Below are positions 33,458-47,617 of a stretch of 64,000 nt of DNA, one piece after another. Positions within the stretch are counted from its first letter, which is position 1, and each line of letters opens with the position of its first letter. Both the position numbers and the translations under genes were made by a program. Source of the stretch: Acidobacteria bacterium Mor1 (GTDB lineage Bacteria > Acidobacteriota > Polarisedimenticolia > Polarisedimenticolales > Polarisedimenticolaceae); assembly GCA_001664505.1 (NCBI GenBank), contig CP011806.1:4842494-4906493 (forward strand), in the 5' to 3' direction. The notes under the pieces were generated by a model. It ran no database searches. It worked only from the letters and a program-made list of their open reading frames with translations, and was not told where the DNA came from.

Positions 33458-33798
33458 GGGGGCTATCTACCGAAGTGCCGGCCGAGGCCGCCGAGTTCCC
33501 CCGCCCTTGCACTCCGTGCTAGCTAGCCCGAAAACACAGCTTTTGTCCCGTTTTTGTCGGATTCCTGTCACATTCCTTGCCGCAATCGCATTGTCGGCGT
33601 ACACCGTGCGTGGAGTCTGTCCGCAACCTCGCGGCTGCGACAGAAACTCCCGAGGGAGGGGCTTTCCGAGGATCCGTCCGCGTGGACGGGCCGTTTCCCA
33701 TCCCAGCCACAGGGGCCGAGCCCGGGTGTTGCGGTTTGCTTCGGGCTCGTTCGTGTATTGCCACGCTTGCAGGACCGATCATTTTGAGGAGGGATGGG
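33458..33798 (+). other. Intergenic region, 341 bp, upstream of peptidase 1
   Basis: No gene is supported. A sequence at 33565-33580 (CTGTCACATTCCTTGC) resembles a sigma-54 element but has T in place of the second G of the -24 GG, so it is doubtful. A GAGGAGGG SD ends the region, just before the ATG at 33799. Confidence 0.4.
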
Positions 33799-36700
33799 AT
33801 GCTTCTCTGCACCCCGACGCGTCGTGCTGCGCGAGTCGCCACGATGCTGCTCGCGCTTACCCTGGCGGCCACCGCCGCTTTCGCCTTCACCCAGCCTGCT
33901 GACGATCGTCGCTACGAAGACAAGATCCAGCAGCGTCTAGGCGGGGTGATCTCCGTCAAGGCGATCTCCACCCAGAGCCTCGAACCCGGCGACGCGTTGC
34001 GTCGCGGCTGGGACGCCTTCGCCGAGCGCGAGGGTGGCCGCTGGGCCATCTACATCGACGCCCGCACCGGCATGCCGACCATGGCCTCGGGCCGCATCGC
34101 CTGGTTCGGCGGAGCCGGCAACGACCTGGCTCCGGCAGGGGCTCTCGATCTGGACCGGCTGGAAGCCCAGGCCCGGACCTTCCTCGAGAACAACACCTCG
34201 GTGCTCGGCAACTGGGCGGCCAGCCTCGAGTTGGATCGCGACGCCTCCGCCGAGCTCGACCAGGACAAGTGGCAGTTGATCTTCCGTCAGCGCGCCGGCG
34301 ACCTGCTGGTCGACAACTCCAAATTCACCTTCCTCGTCGCCTACGGCAACCTGGTGCAGTTCGGCGCCTCGCGGATCTCCCCGGTGACCATCTCGACCAC
34401 CCCGGCGCTCTCCGCCGAGGGTGCGGTCGACAAGGTCAACGCCTACCTGGGTACCGACGGCAGCATGCACCACTACCACGGCGATCCGGAGCTGGTGCTG
34501 GTCGCCATCGACCCCGCCCGCGGTCCCGAGCCCAAACCCTTCGAGGGAACTCGCGGCAGCGGCGTGACCCACGTTCTCGCCTGGCGCATCCAGTTCGAAA
34601 TCGAGGGTGAGGAACAGTGGGAAGCCGAGGTGGATGCCCACACCGGCCAGATCCTGGCCTTCACCGACGCCAGCCATTACCTGAACATCCGCGGCGGCGT
34701 CTACCCGGCGGCCAACGACGAGGACTGCGCGACTCAGGGTTGCGAGATCAACAACTACCCGATGCCCTTCGCTGACTTCTCCGTCGATGGCGGCGCGGCC
34801 CAGACCACCGACGACTTCGGCAACTTCACCTGCAACCCCGGTTCCACGGTGTCGACCTCTCTGAACGGACCCTTCGTCGAGATCGACGATGTGTGCGGTC
34901 CGGTGGCCGAGACCCGCAGCTGCGGCGGTGCCTTCGACCTGGACATCAACGCCGGAACCAACTGCGACAGCGCCACCGGTGACTCCGCCGGCAACACCGG
35001 CGCCAGCCGTTCGGCCTTCTACCACGTCAACCGCGTGGCCCAGATGGCGCGGCACTACATGCCCGGACTGGCCTTCGTCAACAACCCGGTGGTGACCAAC
35101 ACCAACGTCAACAACACCTGCAACGCCACCTGGGGCGGTCAGATCAACATGTTCCGCGCCGGCAACGGTTGCTCGAACACCGGTGAGAACGCCGGAGTGT
35201 TGACGCACGAATGGGGTCACGGCCTCGACCAGAACGACGGCGGCGGCTTCGACCGCACCTCCGAGGCCTACGCCGACGTGGTCGCGATCTTCTACAGCCG
35301 CGAATCCTGCATCGGCCGCGGTTTCCGCCCGGCGATCCAGTGCAGCGGCTACGGCGACACCTGCCTGAACTGCACCGGCGTCCGCGACCACGACTGGGCT
35401 GCGCGTACCTTCAACACGCCGCCCACCCCGGCCGGCTTCGTGGAGAACCAGTGCGGCGGTAGCGGCAGCAGCCCCTGCGGCCGTTCGGTGCACTGTGAGA
35501 GCTACCCGATCGGTGGTTCGATCTTCGACCTGGCGACCCGCGACCTGCCGGCCATGGGCCTCGACGCCGACTCTGCGTGGCAGCTGGCCGAGCGCCTCTG
35601 GTACCAGACTCGCGACGGTTCCTCCGGCGACATCTACAACTGCTCGCTGCCCGATTCCGACAGCTGCGGCGCCTCGTCCTGGTACCAGCGGATGCGGGTG
35701 GCCGACGACGACGACGGTGACCTGAGCAACGGTACGCCCCACGCGGCGGCCCTGTTCGCGGCCTTCGATCGCCACGCCATCGCCTGCGGCGATGCCGCCG
35801 ATCCGGAGAACCAGAACAGCTCCAGCTGCCCGGCGCTGGCCCAGCCCTCGATCCTGGTCAGCAACGAGCCCGGCGGCACCCGGGTCGACTGGGCCGCGGT
35901 GCCCGACGCCTCGGCCTACCTGGTGCTGCGCTCGGACAACGGCTGCAACCGTCAGCACGTGATCCTCGATACCGTGGCCGCTCCGGCGACCACCTACCTC
36001 GACACCACCGTCGATCCGAGCTTCACCGCCTACTACCGGATCCAGGCGATCGGGGCCAACGCCGCGTGCGAGAGCCCGGTTTCGGCCTGTGTCGCCCAGC
36101 CCGACGGCGCCAACCTGGTGCGGATGCGGGCGCGGGTCGAGGACGGCGGCGCTCTCGGCAACGGCACCGGCACCTTCGATCCCGGCGAGACCCTCCAGCT
36201 TCCGGTCTCGCTCTACAACCGCGGCACCGAGACCGGCGTCGGCGTGGTCGGACGGCTCCGTGCCGTCGATCCGGATCAGGCCCGCGTCCTGATCGCCGAT
36301 GCGACCTATCCGGACATCGCCGTCAACGCCGAGGTCGAGAGCAACGCTCCGCACTTCGAGCTGGTGGTCCAACCCAGCGTGCAGTGCGGCGACGTGGTCA
36401 GCCTGGAGCTGGATTCCTCGGCGACCAACGCGCCGATGGATCGCTCGGTGTTCAGCTTCACCCTCGGGACCTTCGACGATGACGTCACCGGGCCGACCGG
36501 TTCGGTGCCTCGCGGCACCACCGACTTCGAGTTGCCGATCTCCGAGGACCGGATGATCACGGAGCTCGATACCAGCGTCGACTTCAGCCTGTTCGGCCAG
36601 AGCTTCGGCATCGACCTGATCTCGCCCGCGGGCACCCAGGTCACCCTGGTCAACAACAACGGCGGTTTCTTCGGCATCGACACCCGCTTCGACCAGCAGA

Positions 36701-37122
36701 CCGACCCGATCGGGCCGGGCACGATGGACGATTTCGTCGGTGAGTCGACCCAGGGAACCTGGATCCTGCGGGTGCGCAACGGCGCGGTCCAGAGCGGGAC
36801 GCTCCAGGGCTGGGTGCTGCACCTCTCGGTCAGCGAGCCGCTGGGCTGCACGCCGCAGACCTGCGCCGATCCGACCCCCGGGGCCACCGACGGCCTGAGG
36901 GTCAACCGGGTCGGGGACGACCTCAGCTTCGAATGGGATCCGGCCACCGGCGCTTCGGGTTACCATCTGCTCGGAGACTCGGTGAAGACCTTCGAGTCCA
37001 ACGAGCTCGTCGGTACCGCCGCCGGTACCACGCTGACCCTGCCGGGCGCGGCGATCGGTGGCGCCGACATCGAGTTCTTCCGCGTTCGCGCGATCAACTC
37101 CTGCAACTGGGAAGGTCCCTGA
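33799..37122 (+). CDS. Secreted M36-like metallopeptidase 1 with P-domain
   Basis: A 1,107-aa exported gluzincin protease. After a signal peptide (about 1-34) comes a long propeptide with FTP/PepSY-like strands (about 40-290). The catalytic domain has HEWGH (His470, Glu471, His474) and the third ligand Glu489 in TSEAYADV. An FN3-like segment (about 690-780) and a proprotein-convertase P/Homo-B domain (about 893-1011) follow, then a C-terminal module ending NSCNWEGP. The 14-residue gap from His474 to Glu489 is shorter than thermolysin's 19, so it is a divergent M36/fungalysin relative. The ATG at 33799 follows GAGGAGGG. First of three tandem paralogues. Confidence 0.88.
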   Translation: MLLCTPTRRAARVATMLLALTLAATAAFAFTQPADDRRYEDKIQQRLGGVISVKAISTQSLEPGDALRRGWDAFAEREGGRWAIYIDARTGMPTMASGRIAWFGGAGNDLAPAGALDLDRLEAQARTFLENNTSVLGNWAASLELDRDASAELDQDKWQLIFRQRAGDLLVDNSKFTFLVAYGNLVQFGASRISPVTISTTPALSAEGAVDKVNAYLGTDGSMHHYHGDPELVLVAIDPARGPEPKPFEGTRGSGVTHVLAWRIQFEIEGEEQWEAEVDAHTGQILAFTDASHYLNIRGGVYPAANDEDCATQGCEINNYPMPFADFSVDGGAAQTTDDFGNFTCNPGSTVSTSLNGPFVEIDDVCGPVAETRSCGGAFDLDINAGTNCDSATGDSAGNTGASRSAFYHVNRVAQMARHYMPGLAFVNNPVVTNTNVNNTCNATWGGQINMFRAGNGCSNTGENAGVLTHEWGHGLDQNDGGGFDRTSEAYADVVAIFYSRESCIGRGFRPAIQCSGYGDTCLNCTGVRDHDWAARTFNTPPTPAGFVENQCGGSGSSPCGRSVHCESYPIGGSIFDLATRDLPAMGLDADSAWQLAERLWYQTRDGSSGDIYNCSLPDSDSCGASSWYQRMRVADDDDGDLSNGTPHAAALFAAFDRHAIACGDAADPENQNSSSCPALAQPSILVSNEPGGTRVDWAAVPDASAYLVLRSDNGCNRQHVILDTVAAPATTYLDTTVDPSFTAYYRIQAIGANAACESPVSACVAQPDGANLVRMRARVEDGGALGNGTGTFDPGETLQLPVSLYNRGTETGVGVVGRLRAVDPDQARVLIADATYPDIAVNAEVESNAPHFELVVQPSVQCGDVVSLELDSSATNAPMDRSVFSFTLGTFDDDVTGPTGSVPRGTTDFELPISEDRMITELDTSVDFSLFGQSFGIDLISPAGTQVTLVNNNGGFFGIDTRFDQQTDPIGPGTMDDFVGESTQGTWILRVRNGAVQSGTLQGWVLHLSVSEPLGCTPQTCADPTPGATDGLRVNRVGDDLSFEWDPATGASGYHLLGDSVKTFESNELVGTAAGTTLTLPGAAIGGADIEFFRVRAINSCNWEGP

Positions 37123-37167
37123 GCAGGAGCGTAGAAGTAAAACCGGCTGAGCACACCGTGCTCTGTT

Positions 37168-37205
37168 GCGGGGCGGCGCCAGGGGTGCCGCCCCGCGTTG
37201 TGTTA
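37168..37205 (+). terminator. Terminator after peptidase 1
   Basis: A 10-bp GC stem (37168-37177 with 37187-37196) followed by GTTGTGTT. Moderately strong; separates peptidases 1 and 2. Confidence 0.65.
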
Positions 37206-37234
37206 CGACACGTTCGATTCCTGGGGGGCGAATC

Positions 37235-40150
37235 ATGAACCCGCGTCCACGCTTTCTCGCTGCGCTGATGGCGGTCGCCGTGACCACGGTGGCCTTCGGC
37301 TTCAATGGCCAGGTGGCTGAACGCCGCTACGAAGATCGGATCAAGTACCGGCCGGGCGGGAGCGTGGCGGTTTCCGCCAAGTCCGTTGAAGCCCTCGAGA
37401 CCGGCGACGCACTCCGCGCCGGTTGGGCCGCCTTCGCCCAGCGCGAGGGAGGCCACTGGGCGATCTACCTCGACGAGCGCACCGGGCTGCCCACGGTGGC
37501 CACCGGCCGGATCGGTTGGTTCGACGGCGAAGCGGCGCAGGCCGAGCTCGATCTCGACCGGCTCGAGTCCCGTGCGCGGGACTTCCTGGCGCGCAACACC
37601 TCGGTGTTGGGCAACTGGGCCCGGGAGCTGGTGCTCGACCGGGACGCTTCGGGGGAGAGCGAGCACGGCAAGTGGCAGCTCGTCTTCCGGCAGCAGCGGG
37701 ACGGCGTACGGGTCGACAACGCCCGTTTCACCTTCCACGTGATCCAGGGCAACCTGGTGCAGTTCGGCGCCAGCCGCATCGCGCCGATCGCCGTACCGGG
37801 CACGCCGAAGATTCAATCCGGCGCCGCGGTGCGCAACTTGTGGAGCTACCTCGGGGTCGACGGCTCCGGCCACACGCTGTCCGAAGAACCGGAGCTGGCC
37901 CTGGTGGCCATCGATCCGGTTCGGGGCGCGAGTCCGTCGGCCTGGAGCGGTGCCCGCGGCGAGGGGGTGGCTCACGCGCTGATCTGGCGCATCCCCTTCA
38001 CCGTCGACGGCGAGTCGACCCTCTGGCAGGGTGAGGTCGATGCGCTTTCCGGCGAGGTGCTGACCTTCGAGGACGCCACTCACTACACGAGCATTCAGGG
38101 CGGGGTCTACCCGACGGCCAACGACGAGGATTGCCCGTCGGGCGGCTGTGAGGTCAACGCCTACCCGATGCCCTTCGCCGCCTACTTCGAGGGCTTCAAC
38201 CCCAACACCAGCATTGCCGACGAGTTCGGCAACTTCACCTGCAACGACCCCACCGACGTGGTGACCACCCGGCTGCGCGGCCCCTACGTGGGCATCGTCG
38301 ACACCTGCGGCCAGGTGCTGCAGACCCGTCCCTGCTCCGGGGACCTGGCGCTGGAACTGAAAAACGGCGAGAACTGCACCGGCAACGACGGCGGCAACAC
38401 CGGCGCCTCGCGCTCGGCGTTCTACCACGTCAACCGCGTGGCCCAGATGGCCCGCAGCTACCTGCCGGGCAATACCTTCATCAACACGCCGGTGACGGTC
38501 AACACCAACATCACCCAGACCTGCAACGCCACCTGGAGCGGTCAGATCAACATGTACAACCGCGGCGGCGGCTGCGGGAACACCGGTGAGAACGCCGGCG
38601 TCCTGACCCACGAATGGGGGCATGGCTTCGACCAGAACGACGGCGGCGGCTTCGATCGTACCTCCGAGGCCTACGCCGACACCGTCGCGGTGTTCTACAG
38701 CCGTGAGTCCTGTGTCGGCCGTGGATTCTTCCTCAACGGTACCTGCAGCGGTTATGGCGACAACTGCCTGAGCTGCACCGGCATTCGCGACCACGACTGG
38801 GCGGCGCGGGCCGCCAACACGCCGGCGACGCCGAGCACCTGGGTGCAGAACCGCTGCGGCGGCGGGGGCAGCAGCCCCTGCGGCCGTTCGGTGCACTGCG
38901 AGAGCTACCCGATCGTCGAGTCGGTCTTCGACCTGGCGACTCGGGATCTTCCGGCCATGGGCATCGATCCGGATTCCGCCTGGCAGCTCGCCGAGCGCCT
39001 CTGGTACGAGAGCCGCGACGGGTCCGGCGGCGACATCTACAACTGCTCGCTGCCCGATTCCGACAGCTGCGGCGCGACCTCCTGGTACCAGCGGATGCGG
39101 GTGGCCGACGACGATGACGGCGACCTGAGCAACGGTACGCCTCACGCGGCGGCACTCTTTGCCGCCTTCGACCGCCACGATATCGCCTGCGGCGCCGCGG
39201 CGGATCTCGAGAACCAGAACACCTCGACCTGCCCGGCGCTGACCCAGCCCGGGATCGCGGTTGCCCGTGAAGAGGAGGGCACCCGCATCGACTGGACCGC
39301 GGTGCCGAACGCCGATTCCTACATCGTCTTCCGCGCCGACCGCAGTTGTGACGTGCAGCACGTCAACATCGGCTCGGTGCCGGCGGGAACCACTACCTTT
39401 GTCGACACCGCCGTCACCCCGGGCTTCACCGCCTACTACCGGGTGCAGGCGGTAGGCGCCAACCCGACCTGCCGCGGCGCGGTGTCGGAATGCGCGGTCA
39501 ACCCGTCCGGCGTCAACCTGATCCGTCAGCGGGTCAACGTGGTCGACACGCCGCTGGGGAACGGCGACGGCGTACTGGACGCGGGGGAGACTGCGCGGAT
39601 TCCGGTCACCCTGTTCAACAGCGGTGTGGAAGACGCGACCGGCGTCAGCGCGCGACTGCGGGCGGTCGACCGTTCCGAGGTGCGGGTGATCGTCGCCGAC
39701 GCGGCCTACCCGAATATCGCGGCCAAGACCGAGGCCGGAAGCGGCACCGACTTCGAGATCGTGGTGCAGCCGGGCGTAGCCTGTCCCGGCATTCTTTCCC
39801 TCAGCCTCGAGATGAACGCCGACGATACGCCGACCTCCACCGCGTCGATGACCTTCGGTCTCGGCGAGGTCTGCCCGGTGGCGACCTGTGACGATGCGGT
39901 TCCCGGGGAGACCTTCGGCCTGCGGGTCGATCGCAGTGGTTCGGACCTGGTGTTCTCGTGGGACGAGAATACCGAGGCGGCGGGCTACTTCGTGCTCAGC
40001 GATGACGCGCCGCAGTTCGGCGATGACGACGTCGCTGGCCGGACCGACGGCGCGATCAGCCTGACCATTCCCGGGGCGGCCGCGAGCGGGCCCTCCATCG
40101 AATTCTTCAAGGTGCGGGGCGTGAATTCCTGCAACTGGGAAGGCCCCTAG
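37235..40150 (+). CDS. Secreted M36-like metallopeptidase 2 (no P-domain)
   Basis: A 971-aa paralogue of the upstream protease. It has a signal peptide (1-24), propeptide (about 28-280) and a catalytic domain with HEWGH (His459, Glu460, His463) and EAYADTVAVFYSRES. A Cys-rich region with conserved CGRSVHCESYPI and the SDSCGATSWYQRMRVADDDDGDLSNGTPHAAA stretch is shared by all three paralogues. The P-domain found in copies 1 and 3 is absent, so the FN3-like region runs straight into the C-terminal module ending NSCNWEGP. The start at 37235 gives the signal peptide; an in-frame upstream extension is not credible. Confidence 0.88.
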   Translation: MNPRPRFLAALMAVAVTTVAFGFNGQVAERRYEDRIKYRPGGSVAVSAKSVEALETGDALRAGWAAFAQREGGHWAIYLDERTGLPTVATGRIGWFDGEAAQAELDLDRLESRARDFLARNTSVLGNWARELVLDRDASGESEHGKWQLVFRQQRDGVRVDNARFTFHVIQGNLVQFGASRIAPIAVPGTPKIQSGAAVRNLWSYLGVDGSGHTLSEEPELALVAIDPVRGASPSAWSGARGEGVAHALIWRIPFTVDGESTLWQGEVDALSGEVLTFEDATHYTSIQGGVYPTANDEDCPSGGCEVNAYPMPFAAYFEGFNPNTSIADEFGNFTCNDPTDVVTTRLRGPYVGIVDTCGQVLQTRPCSGDLALELKNGENCTGNDGGNTGASRSAFYHVNRVAQMARSYLPGNTFINTPVTVNTNITQTCNATWSGQINMYNRGGGCGNTGENAGVLTHEWGHGFDQNDGGGFDRTSEAYADTVAVFYSRESCVGRGFFLNGTCSGYGDNCLSCTGIRDHDWAARAANTPATPSTWVQNRCGGGGSSPCGRSVHCESYPIVESVFDLATRDLPAMGIDPDSAWQLAERLWYESRDGSGGDIYNCSLPDSDSCGATSWYQRMRVADDDDGDLSNGTPHAAALFAAFDRHDIACGAAADLENQNTSTCPALTQPGIAVAREEEGTRIDWTAVPNADSYIVFRADRSCDVQHVNIGSVPAGTTTFVDTAVTPGFTAYYRVQAVGANPTCRGAVSECAVNPSGVNLIRQRVNVVDTPLGNGDGVLDAGETARIPVTLFNSGVEDATGVSARLRAVDRSEVRVIVADAAYPNIAAKTEAGSGTDFEIVVQPGVACPGILSLSLEMNADDTPTSTASMTFGLGEVCPVATCDDAVPGETFGLRVDRSGSDLVFSWDENTEAAGYFVLSDDAPQFGDDDVAGRTDGAISLTIPGAAASGPSIEFFKVRGVNSCNWEGP

Positions 40151-40179
40151 GGATCGAACGATCGATTGGACTATGATGC

Positions 40180-40212
40180 GGCCCAGGGGATCTTCTCCTG
40201 GGCCGTTTTCCT
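40180..40212 (+). terminator. Rho-independent terminator after peptidase 2
   Basis: An 8-bp stem (40180-40187 with 40197-40204) followed by GTTTTCCTTT. It shows that the next gene must start downstream, at 40227. Confidence 0.85.
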
Positions 40213-40226
40213 TTGCGGGGGCGCCG

Positions 40227-41246
40227 ATGGGTGAAGGCGCGGGATTGCCCGCTCGCCGGGAACCGCTACCGCCGGAATGGCCGGTGGAGCAGGCGCTGCG
40301 CGCCTATTTCGACGAGAACGGGTTTACCTTCGAGAGCTACGACGCCTCCCGCACCCCAGCCAACTTCCTCGGCTTCTACTTCACCGTTCCCAACACGCCC
40401 CATCACCGCTGGGCGATCCGGCTGCACGATCTGCACCACGTGGCCACCGGCTACGGCACCGATCCGGTGGGCGAGGGGGAGCTTGCGGCGTGGGAGTGTC
40501 GCCGCGGGCTGCGGCCGCTGGGCCTGTACACCGGCATGATCGTGTCGTCGGCAGTGGCGGTCGGTCTGTTGATCGCTCCGCTTCGCACCCTCCAGGCCTG
40601 GAGGCGTTCGGGACGCTCCCGGGCAGCTTCTCTGTTTCACCGCGGCGATCTGGACTTCGACCGGGCTCGCGAAGGGGACCTCGGCGACCTGCGCCGCGAA
40701 CTGGGAATCGCCGCCCGGGGGGACGCTCCTGGGGGCGAGGACGATCGGCTCCGTGGGACCCACTCGTTGGCTCCGGAATCGCCCGTGGAACGCCCTGCAC
40801 CCTGGCCTGTGCTGTGGCCGCTGCTCCTGCCCCTGTTCTACGGACTGCATCTGATCGAGGAGGTCTACGGCGGGGTAGGTTTCGTCGCCTGGGTGCGTCA
40901 GTACCTGCAGCCGGACTTCACCATGGAGCGCTTCGTGGCGATCAATCGCGTCGCCTGGCCGCTGGTGGCGATCCTGGCGCTGCTCGCGGTACGCCTTCGC
41001 TGGGCGTTCTTTCCCGCGGCCATGTCGCTGTTGTTCGGGCTCAACGGGCTTCTGCACCTGGGTTCGACCCTCTGGTTCGGGACCTACAGTCCAGGGGCCG
41101 TCACCGGCGTTCTTCTCTACTTCCCGCTGGCCTTCACCGCCGTGGTGCGCAGCCACCCCCGGCTCGGTTGGGCCGGGATCCTGAGAGCGCTGGGCGCGGC
41201 GGTGGTCGGCCACGGGATCGTGATCCAACTCGCCTTCGGACCGTAA
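40227..41246 (+). CDS. COQ4-like / HXXEE fusion membrane protein
   Basis: A 339-aa protein. The N-terminal half carries HDLHH and a Glu exactly 12 residues after the last His (His67, Asp68, His71, Glu83), matching the COQ4 zinc motif HDxxHx11E. One hydrophobic segment (about 102-120) and a charged linker (125-190) follow. The C-terminal part has about four membrane helices and the HLIEE motif (208-212) of HXXEE-domain proteins. COQ4 acts in ubiquinone biosynthesis; what the fusion does is unknown. The start at 40227 is preferred because the 40173 ATG lies before the terminator of the preceding gene. It interrupts the peptidase array. Confidence 0.7.
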   Translation: MGEGAGLPARREPLPPEWPVEQALRAYFDENGFTFESYDASRTPANFLGFYFTVPNTPHHRWAIRLHDLHHVATGYGTDPVGEGELAAWECRRGLRPLGLYTGMIVSSAVAVGLLIAPLRTLQAWRRSGRSRAASLFHRGDLDFDRAREGDLGDLRRELGIAARGDAPGGEDDRLRGTHSLAPESPVERPAPWPVLWPLLLPLFYGLHLIEEVYGGVGFVAWVRQYLQPDFTMERFVAINRVAWPLVAILALLAVRLRWAFFPAAMSLLFGLNGLLHLGSTLWFGTYSPGAVTGVLLYFPLAFTAVVRSHPRLGWAGILRALGAAVVGHGIVIQLAFGP

Positions 41247-41313
41247 GCCCGCAAGACCTGTGGCCGCCGTGGCCGGAACGGCGTAAGTGACCGGTGCCGG
41301 CAAAGGAGGATCG

Positions 41314-44300
41314 ATGCGACATCGCGGCCTGTGGCTCCTGATCCTTGGGATGTTGTGGCTGGGCCTGTCCCACGCCGCGGTGCAGCCGGATTTCGACCGC
41401 CGTTACGCCGCTTTCGTCCTGGAGCGAGAGCGCCCCGCTCCGCCGGTCGGTGTCGACGCCCTCGACGCGCTGCCGGAGTCGAGGCCCGAGCGCGCCGCCT
41501 GGGAGGCCTTCCGGCGCCAACACGCCGGCTCCTGGTCGATCTGGATCGATCGCCGCAGCGGTTTGCCCGCCATGGCCACCGGCCGTATCCAGTGGTTCGA
41601 TCCGGCCGCAGGCGAAGCCCGCAGCCGCGAAGCGGTCGCCGGCCGCGCGGTCGAGTTCCTGGAGCGCCACGCCTCGGTGCTCGGACCCGCGGCGACCCAG
41701 CTTCGCCTCGACGAGGGGGCCTCGTCGGAGGTCGCGCCGGGCAAGTGGTTTCTCAGTTTCCAGCAGGCTCGTGACGGCGTGGTGGTCGAGAACGCCCGCA
41801 TGGTGTTCCACCTGATCGACGACCACCTGGTGCAGTTCGGGGCTCACCGTCTGCGGCCGCTGGAACTCTCCGCCGAACCGTCGATCGATGCCGGCGATGC
41901 GCTCGACGCGGTGTTGGCCTACCTCGGCGTCGACGGTGCCAACCATGTCTACCGCCACGGCGAGGAGGGGCCGGAGCTGCTCTATCGCGCGGTGCAGCCC
42001 GATCCGAACCTCGGTGACGCGCGCACCCATCGGCTGCTGTGGCGGATCCGCTTCCAGGTGGAAGGGGAAGTGCCGCTCTGGACCGCCGAAGTGGATGCCC
42101 ATGACGGCAGCCTCTTCGCCTTCTACGACGGCGCCCACTACGCCCGGGTGCGGGGCGGCGTCTACCCGGTGGCCACCGACGAGAGTTGCGTCGACCTCGG
42201 CTGCGAGGTCAACGGCTACCCGATGCCCTTTGCCGACTACTCCGTCGACGGCGGGACCTCCCAGACCGCCGATGAATCCGGAGCCTTTACCTGTGATCCG
42301 GGCAGCAGCGTCGCGGTGGACCTGACCGGGCCCTTCGTCACGGTCAACGACATCTGCGGCGTCGTCGCCGAGACCCGGGACTGCGAGGGACACTTCGACC
42401 TGGAGCTCAAGGCAGGACAGAACTGCGAGGTCGGCCGGGAGGACTCTCCGGGCAATACCGGCGCTGCGCGCAGCGCCTTCTACCACACCAACCGCATCGC
42501 CCAGATGGCTCGTTCGTACCTTCCGGGAAACGCCTGGCTCAACGCGCCGGTGACGGTCAATACCAACGTCGGCAACTTCTGCAATGCCACCTGGAGCGGT
42601 GAGATGAACATGTTCCGCTTCGGAAACGGTTGCAGCAATACCGGCGAGAACTCCGGGCTCTTGACCCACGAGTGGGGGCACGGCCTCGACGAGAACGACG
42701 GCGGCGGGTTCGAGAACACCTCCGAGGCCTATGCCGATACGGTGGCGCTGTTCTATGCCCGTGAATCCTGCATCGCCCGGGGCTTCGACCTGACCGACAA
42801 TTGCGGCGCCTACGGCGATACCTGCCTCGACTGCACCGGACTGCGCGACCACGACTGGAGCATGCGCATCCGCAACGAACCGGCGACGCCGACCGGTTTC
42901 GTCGACACCCTCTGCGGCGCGCCGGGAGGTGCCGAGAGCCCCTGCGGCGGGCAGGTGCACTGCGAGGGCTTTCCCATCGTCGAGTCGATCTTCGATCTGG
43001 CGACCCGGGACCTGCCGGCCATGGGGCTCGATGCGGACTCCGCCTGGCAGCTGGCCGAGCGCCTCTGGTACGAGAGCCGCGACGGTTCCTCGGGGGATAT
43101 CTACAATTGCGACCTGCCCGATTCCGACAGTTGCGCCGCGACCTCCTGGTACCAGCGGATGCGGGTGGCCGACGATGACGACGGCAACCTGAACAACGGC
43201 ACGCCCCACGCCGTGGCGCTGTTCGCCGCCTTCGACCGCCACGACATCGCCTGCGGCCTCTCCGGGGATCCGGACAACCAGAACACCTCGAGTTGTCCGG
43301 CCCTGGCACAGCCGGTGGTCACGGTGACCCGCGAGACCGAAGGCAACCGCCTGAGCTGGAGCCCGGTGGCCGGGGCGGCGACCTACACGGTGTTGCGTTC
43401 GGACCTCGGCTGCAATCGCCAGTCGGTGCTGTTGGCCGACACCGCCGCGACGGCGTATGACGACCTGACCGCCGACCCGCTGGCCGGCCACTTCTACCGG
43501 GTGCGGGCCAACGGCAGCAATCCGGTCTGCGCCAGCCCGGTCTCGGCCTGCATGCCGGCGCCTCCCGGCGCTAACCTGCGCTACCGCGCCCACCGGATCG
43601 AGGATGCGGGCGCCCTGGGCAACGGCACCGGCGAACTCGATCCCGGCGAGACCCTGCGGTTGCCGCTGAGTCTGTTCAACCACGGCGTCGCCGCATCCAC
43701 GGGGACCGAGGCGATCCTGCGTTCGGCCCAGCCCGATCTGGCTCGTGTGTTGAACACCGCGACCTTCCCGTCGATTGCTGTCCAGGACCAGGCGGAGAGC
43801 GATGCCCCGCACTTCGAGGTGGTGGTTTCGCCGGACAACGTCTGCGGCGAGTCCTTGACCTTCGAGCTGGAGTCCTTCGCCCAGAACGCGCCGTCGACCC
43901 TTTCGAGCTTCCGGCTCGAGCTGGGGAACGTCGAGGCGGACGTGACCCAGGACGAAGATCTGGTCATCCCGATCCTGACGTCGACCCCGGTGGAGTCGCT
44001 GCTCGAGATCGCCGATTCGCGGACCCTGGTCGAGGTGGACGTGACCGTGCGCGTCCTGCATATCCAGCCGCGGCAGCTGATCGTCGATCTGGTCTCGCCC
44101 GAAGGCACCAGCGTGCGGCTGCACAATCTGACCAACGCCCAGTTTTTCAACGGCATCAACACCCGCTACGACCTGCAGACCGACCCCGACGGGCCGGGCA
44201 CCATGGACGACTTCATCGGTGAGGACCCCCAGGGCACCTGGCGCCTCCAGATCCAGGACACCGACGACGACAGCTTCGTCGGCCCGGGCACCCTGACCTT

Positions 44301-44616
44301 CTGGACCCTGCACCTGACCGTCGACCAGCCTCTGGGCTGCAACCCGACCCAGTGCCCCGATCCGGTGCCCGGAGAGGCCACCGGGCTGTTGGTCGATCGC
44401 AACGGCGCAGACCTGGGGTTCTCCTGGGACACCCTGGCGGGAGCTGCCGGTTACCACCTGATCGAGGACACCTTGCCGACCCTGGCCGGCGCCGATCTGG
44501 CCGGGTCGACCGGCGGAGCGACCGCGTTGACCCTGCCGGGCGCCGCGACCTCCGGGCCGGATCTTCAGTTCTTCCGGGTGCGCGGGGTCAATAGCTGCAA
44601 CTGGGAGGGGCCGTAG
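41314..44616 (+). CDS. Secreted M36-like metallopeptidase 3 with P-domain
   Basis: A 1,100-aa paralogue of the genes at 33799 and 37235. It has a signal peptide (1-20), propeptide (about 25-275), and HEWGH (His452, Glu453, His456) with EAYADTVALFYARES. An FN3-like region, a P/Homo-B domain (about 875-1002) and the C-terminal module ending NSCNWEGP complete it. It is more diverged than copies 1 and 2 from each other (for example HGLDENDGGGFENTSE), suggesting an older duplication. The start is fixed by AAAGGAGG before the ATG at 41314. Likely a self-cleaving extracellular protease. Confidence 0.88.
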   Translation: MRHRGLWLLILGMLWLGLSHAAVQPDFDRRYAAFVLERERPAPPVGVDALDALPESRPERAAWEAFRRQHAGSWSIWIDRRSGLPAMATGRIQWFDPAAGEARSREAVAGRAVEFLERHASVLGPAATQLRLDEGASSEVAPGKWFLSFQQARDGVVVENARMVFHLIDDHLVQFGAHRLRPLELSAEPSIDAGDALDAVLAYLGVDGANHVYRHGEEGPELLYRAVQPDPNLGDARTHRLLWRIRFQVEGEVPLWTAEVDAHDGSLFAFYDGAHYARVRGGVYPVATDESCVDLGCEVNGYPMPFADYSVDGGTSQTADESGAFTCDPGSSVAVDLTGPFVTVNDICGVVAETRDCEGHFDLELKAGQNCEVGREDSPGNTGAARSAFYHTNRIAQMARSYLPGNAWLNAPVTVNTNVGNFCNATWSGEMNMFRFGNGCSNTGENSGLLTHEWGHGLDENDGGGFENTSEAYADTVALFYARESCIARGFDLTDNCGAYGDTCLDCTGLRDHDWSMRIRNEPATPTGFVDTLCGAPGGAESPCGGQVHCEGFPIVESIFDLATRDLPAMGLDADSAWQLAERLWYESRDGSSGDIYNCDLPDSDSCAATSWYQRMRVADDDDGNLNNGTPHAVALFAAFDRHDIACGLSGDPDNQNTSSCPALAQPVVTVTRETEGNRLSWSPVAGAATYTVLRSDLGCNRQSVLLADTAATAYDDLTADPLAGHFYRVRANGSNPVCASPVSACMPAPPGANLRYRAHRIEDAGALGNGTGELDPGETLRLPLSLFNHGVAASTGTEAILRSAQPDLARVLNTATFPSIAVQDQAESDAPHFEVVVSPDNVCGESLTFELESFAQNAPSTLSSFRLELGNVEADVTQDEDLVIPILTSTPVESLLEIADSRTLVEVDVTVRVLHIQPRQLIVDLVSPEGTSVRLHNLTNAQFFNGINTRYDLQTDPDGPGTMDDFIGEDPQGTWRLQIQDTDDDSFVGPGTLTFWTLHLTVDQPLGCNPTQCPDPVPGEATGLLVDRNGADLGFSWDTLAGAAGYHLIEDTLPTLAGADLAGSTGGATALTLPGAATSGPDLQFFRVRGVNSCNWEGP

Positions 44617-44755: not shown

Positions 44756-45958
44756 GTGAAGTCCAGCGACGTGAAGTCCGACGACGTCCACGTCGTCGAA
44801 GCCGACGGCCGCCAATACATCCTGGTGGGCACCGCCCACGTCTCCCAGGAATCGGCGGACCTCGTCCGTGAGGTGATCGAGCGTGAGCAGCCCGACGTGG
44901 TCTGCGTCGAGCTCGACGAGCAGCGCTACAAGGCGTTGACCGAAAAGAGCCGCTGGGAAAACCTCGACATCAAGCAGGTGATCAAGCAGAAGCAGCTGCC
45001 GACGCTGATCGTCAACCTGATGCTCTCTTCCTACCAGAAGCGTCTGGGCGGCAAGCTCGGCGTGCTGCCCGGGACCGAGCTGCTCGAGGCGACCAAAGTG
45101 GCCAAGGAGCAGGACATCCCCTTCGAGCTCTGCGACCGCAACGTGCGTACCACCATGTTGCGGGCCTGGAACTCGATGTCCTTCTGGAAGAAGAACAACC
45201 TGCTCGCCGCGGTGGTGGCCTCGATGCTCTCCAAGGATGAACTGTCCGAGGAAGAGCTGCGCCAACTCCGCCAGCAGGACGTGCTGTCGGAGATGATGAA
45301 CGAGCTGGCCACGGCGATGCCCAACCTCAAGCGAGTACTGATCGACGAGCGGGACGTGTACCTCGCCGAGAAGATCCGCCGGGTCAAGGGGCAGAGGATC
45401 GTCGCGGTGGTCGGTGCCGGCCACGTCGAGGGCATGAAGAAGATGCTGCTCGAGGGGGGCGACCCGGTCGACCTGGCGACCATCGAAGAGATCCCGAAGA
45501 AGTTCCCGCTGGCCAAGGTGATCGGCTGGGCGGTGCCGGTGATCATCGTCGCCGCCCTCGGTTGGATCGGATACACCAAGGGTTCCGACGCCATGGGGGA
45601 GAACGCGCTCTTCTGGGTCGCGGTCAACGGTGTGCCCGCCGCCATCGGCGCTCTGGTCGCCCTGGCTCATCCGCTGACGATCCTGATCGCGCTACTCGCC
45701 GCTCCGATTACCAGCCTGACGCCGGTGATCGGAGCGGGGTACGTCACCGCCTTCGTGCAGGCCTGGTTCAGTCCGCCCAAGGTGCGGGACTTCCAGACCG
45801 TCGCCGACGAGATGGGCAAGGCCGGCAACTGGTGGAAGAACCGGTTGCTCAAGGTGTTCCTGGCCTTCATCCTGCCGACTCTGGGCAGCCTGCTCGGCAC
45901 CTACGTCGGCCTGGCCAAGATCCTCGGGGCTGCCGCAGGCGGGTCCAGCGGCTCCTGA
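44756..45958 (+). CDS. TraB/PrgY family membrane protein
   Basis: A 400-aa member of the TraB/PrgY (pheromone shutdown) family, related to TIKI-type proteases. The N-terminal domain has VGTAHVSQES (GTxH) and VVGAGHVEGM (GxGH), the conserved His motifs, plus CVELDEQRY. About four hydrophobic helices follow from residue 260. The annotated GTG has no SD. An AGGAGG lies 45-60 bp upstream, 7 nt before an in-frame ATC at 44711, so translation may begin there at a non-standard codon. The 3' end overlaps the convergent kinase gene by 58 nt. Confidence 0.85.
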   Translation: MKSSDVKSDDVHVVEADGRQYILVGTAHVSQESADLVREVIEREQPDVVCVELDEQRYKALTEKSRWENLDIKQVIKQKQLPTLIVNLMLSSYQKRLGGKLGVLPGTELLEATKVAKEQDIPFELCDRNVRTTMLRAWNSMSFWKKNNLLAAVVASMLSKDELSEEELRQLRQQDVLSEMMNELATAMPNLKRVLIDERDVYLAEKIRRVKGQRIVAVVGAGHVEGMKKMLLEGGDPVDLATIEEIPKKFPLAKVIGWAVPVIIVAALGWIGYTKGSDAMGENALFWVAVNGVPAAIGALVALAHPLTILIALLAAPITSLTPVIGAGYVTAFVQAWFSPPKVRDFQTVADEMGKAGNWWKNRLLKVFLAFILPTLGSLLGTYVGLAKILGAAAGGSSGS

Positions 45959-47418
45959 TCCTCTTCGAGCCGGTCCTGCACCTCCCGTTCGAGCAGTAGC
46001 AACATTCCGCCGCTACGCGTGGGCGCGTGACGTCGCGCAGCCTTGCGAGCCAACCGGCGAACCACCTGGCGGCAGAGGGTGTCTTCCAACGCGGGCCGCG
46101 TGACCTCCAGCACCATCGCCCGCCGGCGCGATGCCTCGAGGATGAACGCGGCGACACCCCCGGCGAGTTCCTCGTGGGATGCCCGCGCCTTCCGACCCGG
46201 AGAGCGCAGCGCGGCGGTGGACCAGACCGGAACGCCCCCCAGAAGTTCGAGGGGTAGCCCGGCATCGAGCCGATGCCGCCGGACCAGCCGCCGCGCCGCG
46301 GCACCTCGCTGCAGCAGCAGGCGCAGCACCAGTCGACCCAGGCCATGGCATCCGTCGGCTCGCCCCAGGCGGCAGGCCTGAAGCCCGTGAATACCGGCGA
46401 GGATGCGTGCCTCCTCGACGACCTTGCGAGCGCGGGTGGCCGAACTCTCGAGGGTCACCACCCGGCATGCACCGAGGCGAACGGCATCGACGGCCAATCG
46501 CAACGCGGCCCGGTCGGCCATGCCTGCCGGGCGCCCGATCGACGGGGCGGGGCCGGGCGGCCGCACGCCGAGTTCGGTCAGGGCGGCTCCGGCGTCGGCC
46601 GGGCGTTCATCCCGCTGCCGCGCCATCAGCGACTGGATCAAGCGTGCCAGCCGCTCGCCCAGTTCCGGCCGGTAGCCTCTCGGGTCAGGCACCTCGCCGG
46701 ATAGGTGCCAGCGCACCACCTCGTCGGGGGTGAGCACCGGTTGAGGCAGGTGTCCCGTCGCCAGCAGGAACAGCAGGATGCCCAGGCCGTAAAGATCGGT
46801 GCGGCCGTCGACGGCTCCTCCGGTGATCGCCTCGGGGGCGACGTAGGGCAGGGAGCCGCTGAGCCTTCCGGGATCCTCCCGCAGCCCCTGGCGTTCGGCC
46901 AGGCCGAAGTCGGTCAGCTTGACCCGCCCGGGTCCGATGCGCGTCGGCCCGACCCGGCGGCCGGAGACCAGCACGTTGGCCGGCTTGAGGTCCCGGTGCA
47001 CCAGCCCCGCCTGATGCACGTGGTGCAGGCCCAGCAAGATCCGCCGCGCCAGCTCTTCCAACGCGCGACCGGGCACCTCACCGGGGCGCAGCGCCTGATG
47101 AGCCGGCTTGCCCGGGAAGTACTCCATCACCAGGTAGGGCGCGCCTTCGGGGATCGGACCGGCGGCTGCATGTTCGAGACCGAGGACCTGCACGATGTTG
47201 GGATGGCGCAGCCCGGTCCACGCCGCGAACTCACCGGAGAGCGGATGGCCGGGGCCCGCAGGCGCCGGTTCGTCCAGCACCTTCAACGCCACGTCCCGGT
47301 GAGTCACCCGGTCGTAGGCCCGGTAGACCGAACCCATGCCTCCATGACCCACGGCCTCGAGCACCAGGAAGCGTTGATCCTGTAGCGGTCCACTCGCAGA
47401 CACGGCGAGTCCCTGCAC
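45901..47418 (-). CDS. Ser/Thr protein kinase with degenerate ATPase-like tail
   Basis: A 505-aa protein. Residues 14-275 are a complete Hanks-type kinase: Gly loop GHGGMGSVYRA, Lys46, HRDLKPANVL (Asp143), DFGLAE (Asp170) and APEAITGGAVDGRTDLYGLG. The remaining part begins IGRPAGMADRAALR, like the FVGR start of AAA_16/STAND ATPases in large bacterial kinases. The Walker A position is occupied by LESSATRARK and the region is only about 200 residues, so ATP hydrolysis there is unlikely. The GTG at 47418 is preferred to one at 47442 because AAGGGGGG precedes it. No transmembrane segment is seen. Confidence 0.88.
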   Translation of the reverse strand: MQGLAVSASGPLQDQRFLVLEAVGHGGMGSVYRAYDRVTHRDVALKVLDEPAPAGPGHPLSGEFAAWTGLRHPNIVQVLGLEHAAAGPIPEGAPYLVMEYFPGKPAHQALRPGEVPGRALEELARRILLGLHHVHQAGLVHRDLKPANVLVSGRRVGPTRIGPGRVKLTDFGLAERQGLREDPGRLSGSLPYVAPEAITGGAVDGRTDLYGLGILLFLLATGHLPQPVLTPDEVVRWHLSGEVPDPRGYRPELGERLARLIQSLMARQRDERPADAGAALTELGVRPPGPAPSIGRPAGMADRAALRLAVDAVRLGACRVVTLESSATRARKVVEEARILAGIHGLQACRLGRADGCHGLGRLVLRLLLQRGAAARRLVRRHRLDAGLPLELLGGVPVWSTAALRSPGRKARASHEELAGGVAAFILEASRRRAMVLEVTRPALEDTLCRQVVRRLARKAARRHAPTRSGGMLLLLEREVQDRLEEDQEPLDPPAAAPRILARPT

Positions 47419-47617
47419 GTCATCCCCCCTTCTTGTGTTCACTGACCCGTGATGCCGAGCCCGCGGTCGCGGTGCGTCCGGCGCTCCGAACTTAAGCCGA
47501 CGTAGCGGCGGCGATCAACGGTGGCGCGGTAGCTGCGTTGCGGCGTGATCGACCTCGAGTTGTCCCTCGGGAACACAGCCTGTAGGGTGGTTCCGCAATG
47601 CCGAAGAGGAGATGCCT

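Follow-up and report, generated by a model that had tools for sequence, protein, structure and literature searches.

The protein described here joins two known folds in a new architecture. On sequence and predicted structure, residues 17–165 adopt the C-terminal part of the Coq4 fold, its metal-binding core, and keep all four ligand residues, and residues 196–339 make up an HXXEE membrane domain of five helices in which the conserved H/E/E/N/H set is complete (Table 1). Its gene lies in the window, the whole 64-kb stretch of DNA that was analysed, which spans 4.84–4.91 Mb of a single-contig 5.985-Mb genome. By analogy with characterised members of the two families, the protein is best read, at a probability of roughly 40%, as a bifunctional membrane-embedded enzyme that would act on a fatty-acyl or prenyl amphiphile. 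The new part is the short Coq4-like subfamily and its fusion, neither of which was found described in the literature search. The original prediction called the combination undescribed, and accordingly no paper naming both COQ4 and HXXEE was found, nor did the searches return another protein spanning both halves.

Table 1. Features of the fusion gene and its product in the window
Feature	Position	Strand	Basis
Terminator-like hairpin with T-rich tail, between the upstream protease-like gene and the fusion gene	40178..40206	+	Pattern scan, 13-pair stem
Fusion gene, 339 aa	40227..41246	+	Coding bias stays in frame along the whole open frame
Coq4-like core domain, residues 17-165, predicted helices and one beta hairpin	40275..40721	+	Profile match to 3MSQ/6E12; hhalign 99.0% to Coq4; AF2 pLDDT 90; VIA Z 8.5
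Metal-site motif HDxxHx11E: H67, D68, H71, E83 (H67-D68-L-H-H71-x11-E83)	40425..40475	+	Translation, family alignment, 6E12 alignment
Linker, residues 166-195	40722..40811	+	Alignment with Coq4-like relatives; GTG/TTG codons only, no ATG
HXXEE membrane domain, residues 196-339	40812..41243	+	Pfam PF13787; AF2 helices
HXXEE motif H208-L-I-E211-E212, first membrane helix	40848..40862	+	Translation, family alignment
Second conserved HXXEE motif, N273-x3-H277	41043..41057	+	Family alignment
Third conserved HXXEE motif, P289-G290	41091..41096	+	Family alignment

The N-terminal half belongs to a shortened, divergent Coq4-like subfamily and is not COQ4 proper. As a single sequence, the fusion protein has no Coq4 match in Pfam or NCBIfam (the PF05019 gathering cut-off is 22.9 bits), and phmmer found nothing for it in the PDB; weak matches to MGTL and XopAA are at chance level, far below cut-off, and were rejected. 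A profile built from 35 members of the N-half family has 3MSQ (E 2.2e-5) and then 6E12 (E 2.8e-4) as its best PDB matches. Scored one by one against PF05019, the relatives reach 10.6–21.2 bits or do not match, all below the cut-off; 23 of the 35 match weakly at E up to 1, with a best value of 5.6e-5. The subfamily is poorly recognised by Pfam or NCBIfam. The family reaches 99.0% in a profile–profile comparison (hhalign) with nine bona fide Coq4 sequences, and 0.2% in the control comparison with the HXXEE profile. The two profiles being unrelated, the notion that both motifs lie within one unrelated fold was rejected.

The AlphaFold model of the N-terminal domain has a pLDDT of 90.2, and the only structures that VIA matches to it are 6E12 (Z 8.5, rmsd 4.0, 125 residues, chain residues 78–216) and 3MSQ (Z 8.0). 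Foldseek E-values for the 6E12 and 3MSQ comparison, weak by themselves, are 0.047 and 0.10, at probabilities of 0.99 and 0.87. The fusion protein therefore resembles the Coq4 family (PF05019; 6E12, which is Alr8543, and 3MSQ) in its aligned HDxxHx11E motif and in a core fold shared over about 125 residues, but differs from it in missing the N-terminal helices (6E12 residues before 78), in scoring under the Pfam cut-off, in belonging to a clade of its own, and in having a host genome where no ubiquinone marker scores over cut-off. The COQ4-like identity originally proposed holds through the family profile and the fold, but only for a short divergent core whose single sequence falls below the Pfam threshold.

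The motif HDxxHx11E corresponds ligand for ligand to the Coq4 metal site, as had been proposed. In the family-profile alignment, H67, D68, H71, and E83 pair with H120, D121, H124, and E136 of 6E12, the metal ligands of that structure (PMC9774615). Back-translated, the motif occurs once on both strands of the 64-kb window against 0.12 occurrences expected, and by itself is only mildly unlikely by chance. It is taken as real because none of 35 aligned homologues departs from H67, D68, H71, G82, and E83; these homologues were retrieved partly via the string HDLHHVAT, so that conservation of that stretch is partly selected. Since the 6E12 crystal (Alr8543) contains Mg2+ at the same motif (PMC9774615), the ligand residues of the proposed zinc motif stand, but zinc itself is a hypothesis. 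Being small and probably soluble, the Coq4-like core should lend itself to purification and so to identification of the metal that the motif binds.

The HXXEE half is recognised by Pfam directly. PF13787 matches residues 200–304 at 44.2 bits (gathering cut-off 25; E 3.8e-11), covering profile positions 2–113 of 114, which bears out the family assignment first made from HLIEE at 208–212. In an alignment with 26 other HXXEE proteins from genome searches, which are diverse and share 20–32% identity with the fusion protein, the near-invariant columns H208, E211, E212, N273, H277, P289, and G290 are all retained. Modelled without homologues, this half is predicted by AF2 to form five helices at residues 197–226, 233–256, 262–284, 289–309, and 314–337, with low confidence (pLDDT mostly 50–70). 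The HXXEE profile found nothing among PDB sequences, and VIA matches over residues 196–339, being generic helical matches on a low-confidence model, give no fold assignment. Structure prediction yields two separate folds, a confident one with Coq4 matches and one whose helices are of low confidence.

The HXXEE family has one experimental precedent, the N-acyl deacylase MucF of Streptococcus mutans, an HXXEE domain membrane protein that strips the N-fatty-acyl group off reutericyclin (PMC9112991, PMC10161427). This activity is reported only for MucF and close homologues with at least 50% identity to it (PMC10161427). The fusion protein shares with the family a score over the Pfam cut-off, the H..EE, N...H, and PG motifs, and several predicted membrane helices. 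It differs in that its HXXEE domain is not a stand-alone protein but follows a soluble domain, and its link to MucF is one of family annotation.

Stand-alone Coq4-like proteins carry the same motif set as the fusion protein (for example L004, L008, L014, L034, and L076). A scan of GTDB genomes with peptide patterns including HDLHHVAT returned 46 of these relatives, mostly from Myxococcota, with some from Pseudomonas, Planctomycetota, and Acidobacteriota. Unlike the fusion protein, they end after the Coq4-like domain or after a single membrane helix, and none of the 46 has HXXEE in its frame; a C-terminal membrane helix is predicted in 12 of 44. In the tree, the short family separates from Coq4 with full support (100/100), and the fusion protein groups with L076, which comes from the same phylum as its host, and L004 at a support of 99/96. 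Identity over the N-terminal half is 57% to L076 and 54% to L004. In Minicystis, Nannocystis, Polyangium, and one Acidobacteria genome, sub-threshold PF05019 matches land on short-family members, and the first three genomes also carry strong bona fide Coq4 genes. No gene neighbourhood is conserved among the relatives' loci except between close relatives such as the Pseudomonas loci, where L040, L042, L043, L045, and L046 have a common neighbourhood and a hydrophobic C-terminal tail.

Other fusions also appear to make use of the Coq4 core. L078 (1501–2772, minus strand) and L124 (880–2007, plus strand) carry Coq4-like domains (HDFGH / HDIHH ... GE) at the C-terminal end of longer proteins, and L078 has a weak, sub-threshold TerB-like match ahead of that domain. 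L144 (1210–2148, minus strand), from Myxococcota, is a Coq4-like protein with a long hydrophobic, polytopic-looking C-terminal extension that lacks the HXXEE motif.

The bifunctional reading of the fusion protein is the most likely one because both halves have catalytic precedents, in COQ4 and MucF, and both polar residue sets are intact. Human COQ4 reportedly acts on CoQ precursors as an oxidative decarboxylase (PMC11495197), and crystals of the Coq4 homologue Alr8543 contained oleic acid or a prenyl lipid together with a metal at HDxxHx11E (PMC9774615). In the proposed mechanism, the HXXEE half would hold a long-chain amphiphile in the membrane and hydrolyse an acyl (amide) bond, as MucF does, while the Coq4-like half, at the membrane surface, would perform a metal-dependent reaction on that molecule or on the released head group. 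The substrate would be a lipid or lipid-linked secondary metabolite and not a ubiquinone precursor. Against this reading count its occurrence in a single genome, the likelihood that simple membrane tethering of the relatives is useful by itself, and the lack of a conserved gene neighbourhood that would name a substrate; the MucF analogy is limited further by the 20–32% identity of HXXEE proteins to the fusion protein and by the low confidence of the C-terminal model. A tentative proposal, at odds well short of even, is that the protein is a membrane enzyme with two heads: a metal centre of the Coq4 type that works outside ubiquinone synthesis, and, coupled to it, an HXXEE acyl hydrolase that acts on the same lipid.

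It is unlikely that the HXXEE half is mainly a membrane anchor, with the Coq4-like half as the sole working enzyme and the fusion standing in for the single C-terminal helix of the relatives. The predicted helices of 12 of 44 relatives and the unrelated polytopic-looking extension of L144 would fit such tethering, but the fusion protein retains every near-invariant polar HXXEE residue, which an anchor would not need. Retention of both putative catalytic residue sets speaks against a purely anchoring role for either half. More doubtful still is that the Coq4-like half is a non-catalytic module that binds and presents lipid, passing an acyl or prenyl substrate to an HXXEE hydrolase. Coq4 homologues do bind oleic acid or a prenyl lipid (PMC9774615), and yeast Coq4 was long regarded as a scaffold; however, every aligned family member retains the metal ligands, and human COQ4 reportedly has catalytic activity (PMC11495197).

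Quinone synthesis in the host was assessed by searching its genome for four marker families, MqnC, MenD, UbiG, and Coq4. MqnC is present over cut-off about 2.5 Mb from the fusion gene, where two adjacent sequences match the MqnC model, one of them over cut-off (G000:C1:2389656-2392631); MenD, UbiG, and bona fide Coq4 have no match over cut-off in the genome. The fusion gene is therefore far from quinone genes, as originally noted. On the four markers, the genome looks like that of a futalosine menaquinone maker. Because MqnC is over cut-off and MenD, UbiG, and bona fide Coq4 are not, coenzyme-Q synthesis is unlikely, as is a coenzyme-Q role for the fusion protein in this host, and the Coq4-like half probably serves some purpose other than coenzyme-Q production. 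It is improbable that the protein instead modifies menaquinone or a futalosine-pathway intermediate. The presence of MqnC and the action of Coq4 elsewhere on prenylated aromatic acids would accord with such a role, but the gene is unlinked to quinone genes, the stand-alone relatives are scattered and are found also in Pseudomonas and in genomes that encode a bona fide Coq4 as well, and the protein is absent from all 99 of the nearest relatives searched.

The COQ4 family is defined by quinone synthesis, and its chemistry was reportedly assigned only recently. Since the short core is common in Myxococcota (of 377 genomes, 110 match one of the two halves of the fusion protein) and occurs here in a genome where ubiquinone markers stay below cut-off, its distribution suggests that the Coq4 metal site serves lipids other than quinones. 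The fusion partner, whose family includes a known deacylase, offers a concrete clue to the substrate class. If the protein is indeed two-headed, its stand-alone relatives would be a widespread, unrecognised family of Coq4-core enzymes with a non-quinone substrate.

Among the sampled genomes and in the GTDB scan, only the host genome showed a Coq4-like domain fused to HXXEE. No match spans both halves in the 100 nearest genomes (searched with the N-terminal half), in 396 genomes of the host's phylum, in 392 of the phylum of genome G105, in 377 of the phylum of Minicystis (110 of which match either half), or in phages and plasmids; these genome sets are samples, in which absence of a second fusion is no proof of absence. 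Viral contigs, phages, and plasmids yielded no relative, and none of the HXXEE proteins that align into the linker (among L160–L166) has the metal motif ahead of it.

The fusion gene is read in one frame, with a codon-position GC bias that runs through the Coq4-like half, the linker, and the HXXEE half. The first part of the linker retains the C-terminal tail of the Coq4-like family (R.xH..AP) and then continues stop-free into the membrane domain. The longest ORF begins at 40173; 40227 appears to be the better start, because a hairpin lies at 40178–40206 and homologues begin near residues 1–15 of the 40227 start. Shuffled sequence yields about 1 hairpin of this type in the region. An assembly or sequencing join of two adjacent genes, or a functionless chance read-through, is very improbable: the fusion is known from one genome and no second species of the genus was among the relatives searched, but the genome is a single contig, the frame is continuous with steady codon bias through the linker, family-like sequence enters the linker, and the second half has no separate ATG start.

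The fusion gene begins 76 bases 3' of the stop of the preceding gene, and about 40 bases separate its end from the start of the following one. These neighbours had been described as two secreted proteases; both contain HEWGH and read as secreted proteins, but Pfam assigns a peptidase to neither of them, nor to the large gene upstream at 33577–37122. Pfam does place a proprotein-convertase P-domain in the downstream neighbour and in that upstream gene. The three large genes form a row (33577–37122, 37166–40150, and 41287–44616) with P-domains in the first and third; the second and third are clearly alike, and the fusion gene splits the row between them. Downstream, on the minus strand at 45901–47442, is a gene for a protein kinase domain (Pkinase E 1.3e-38).
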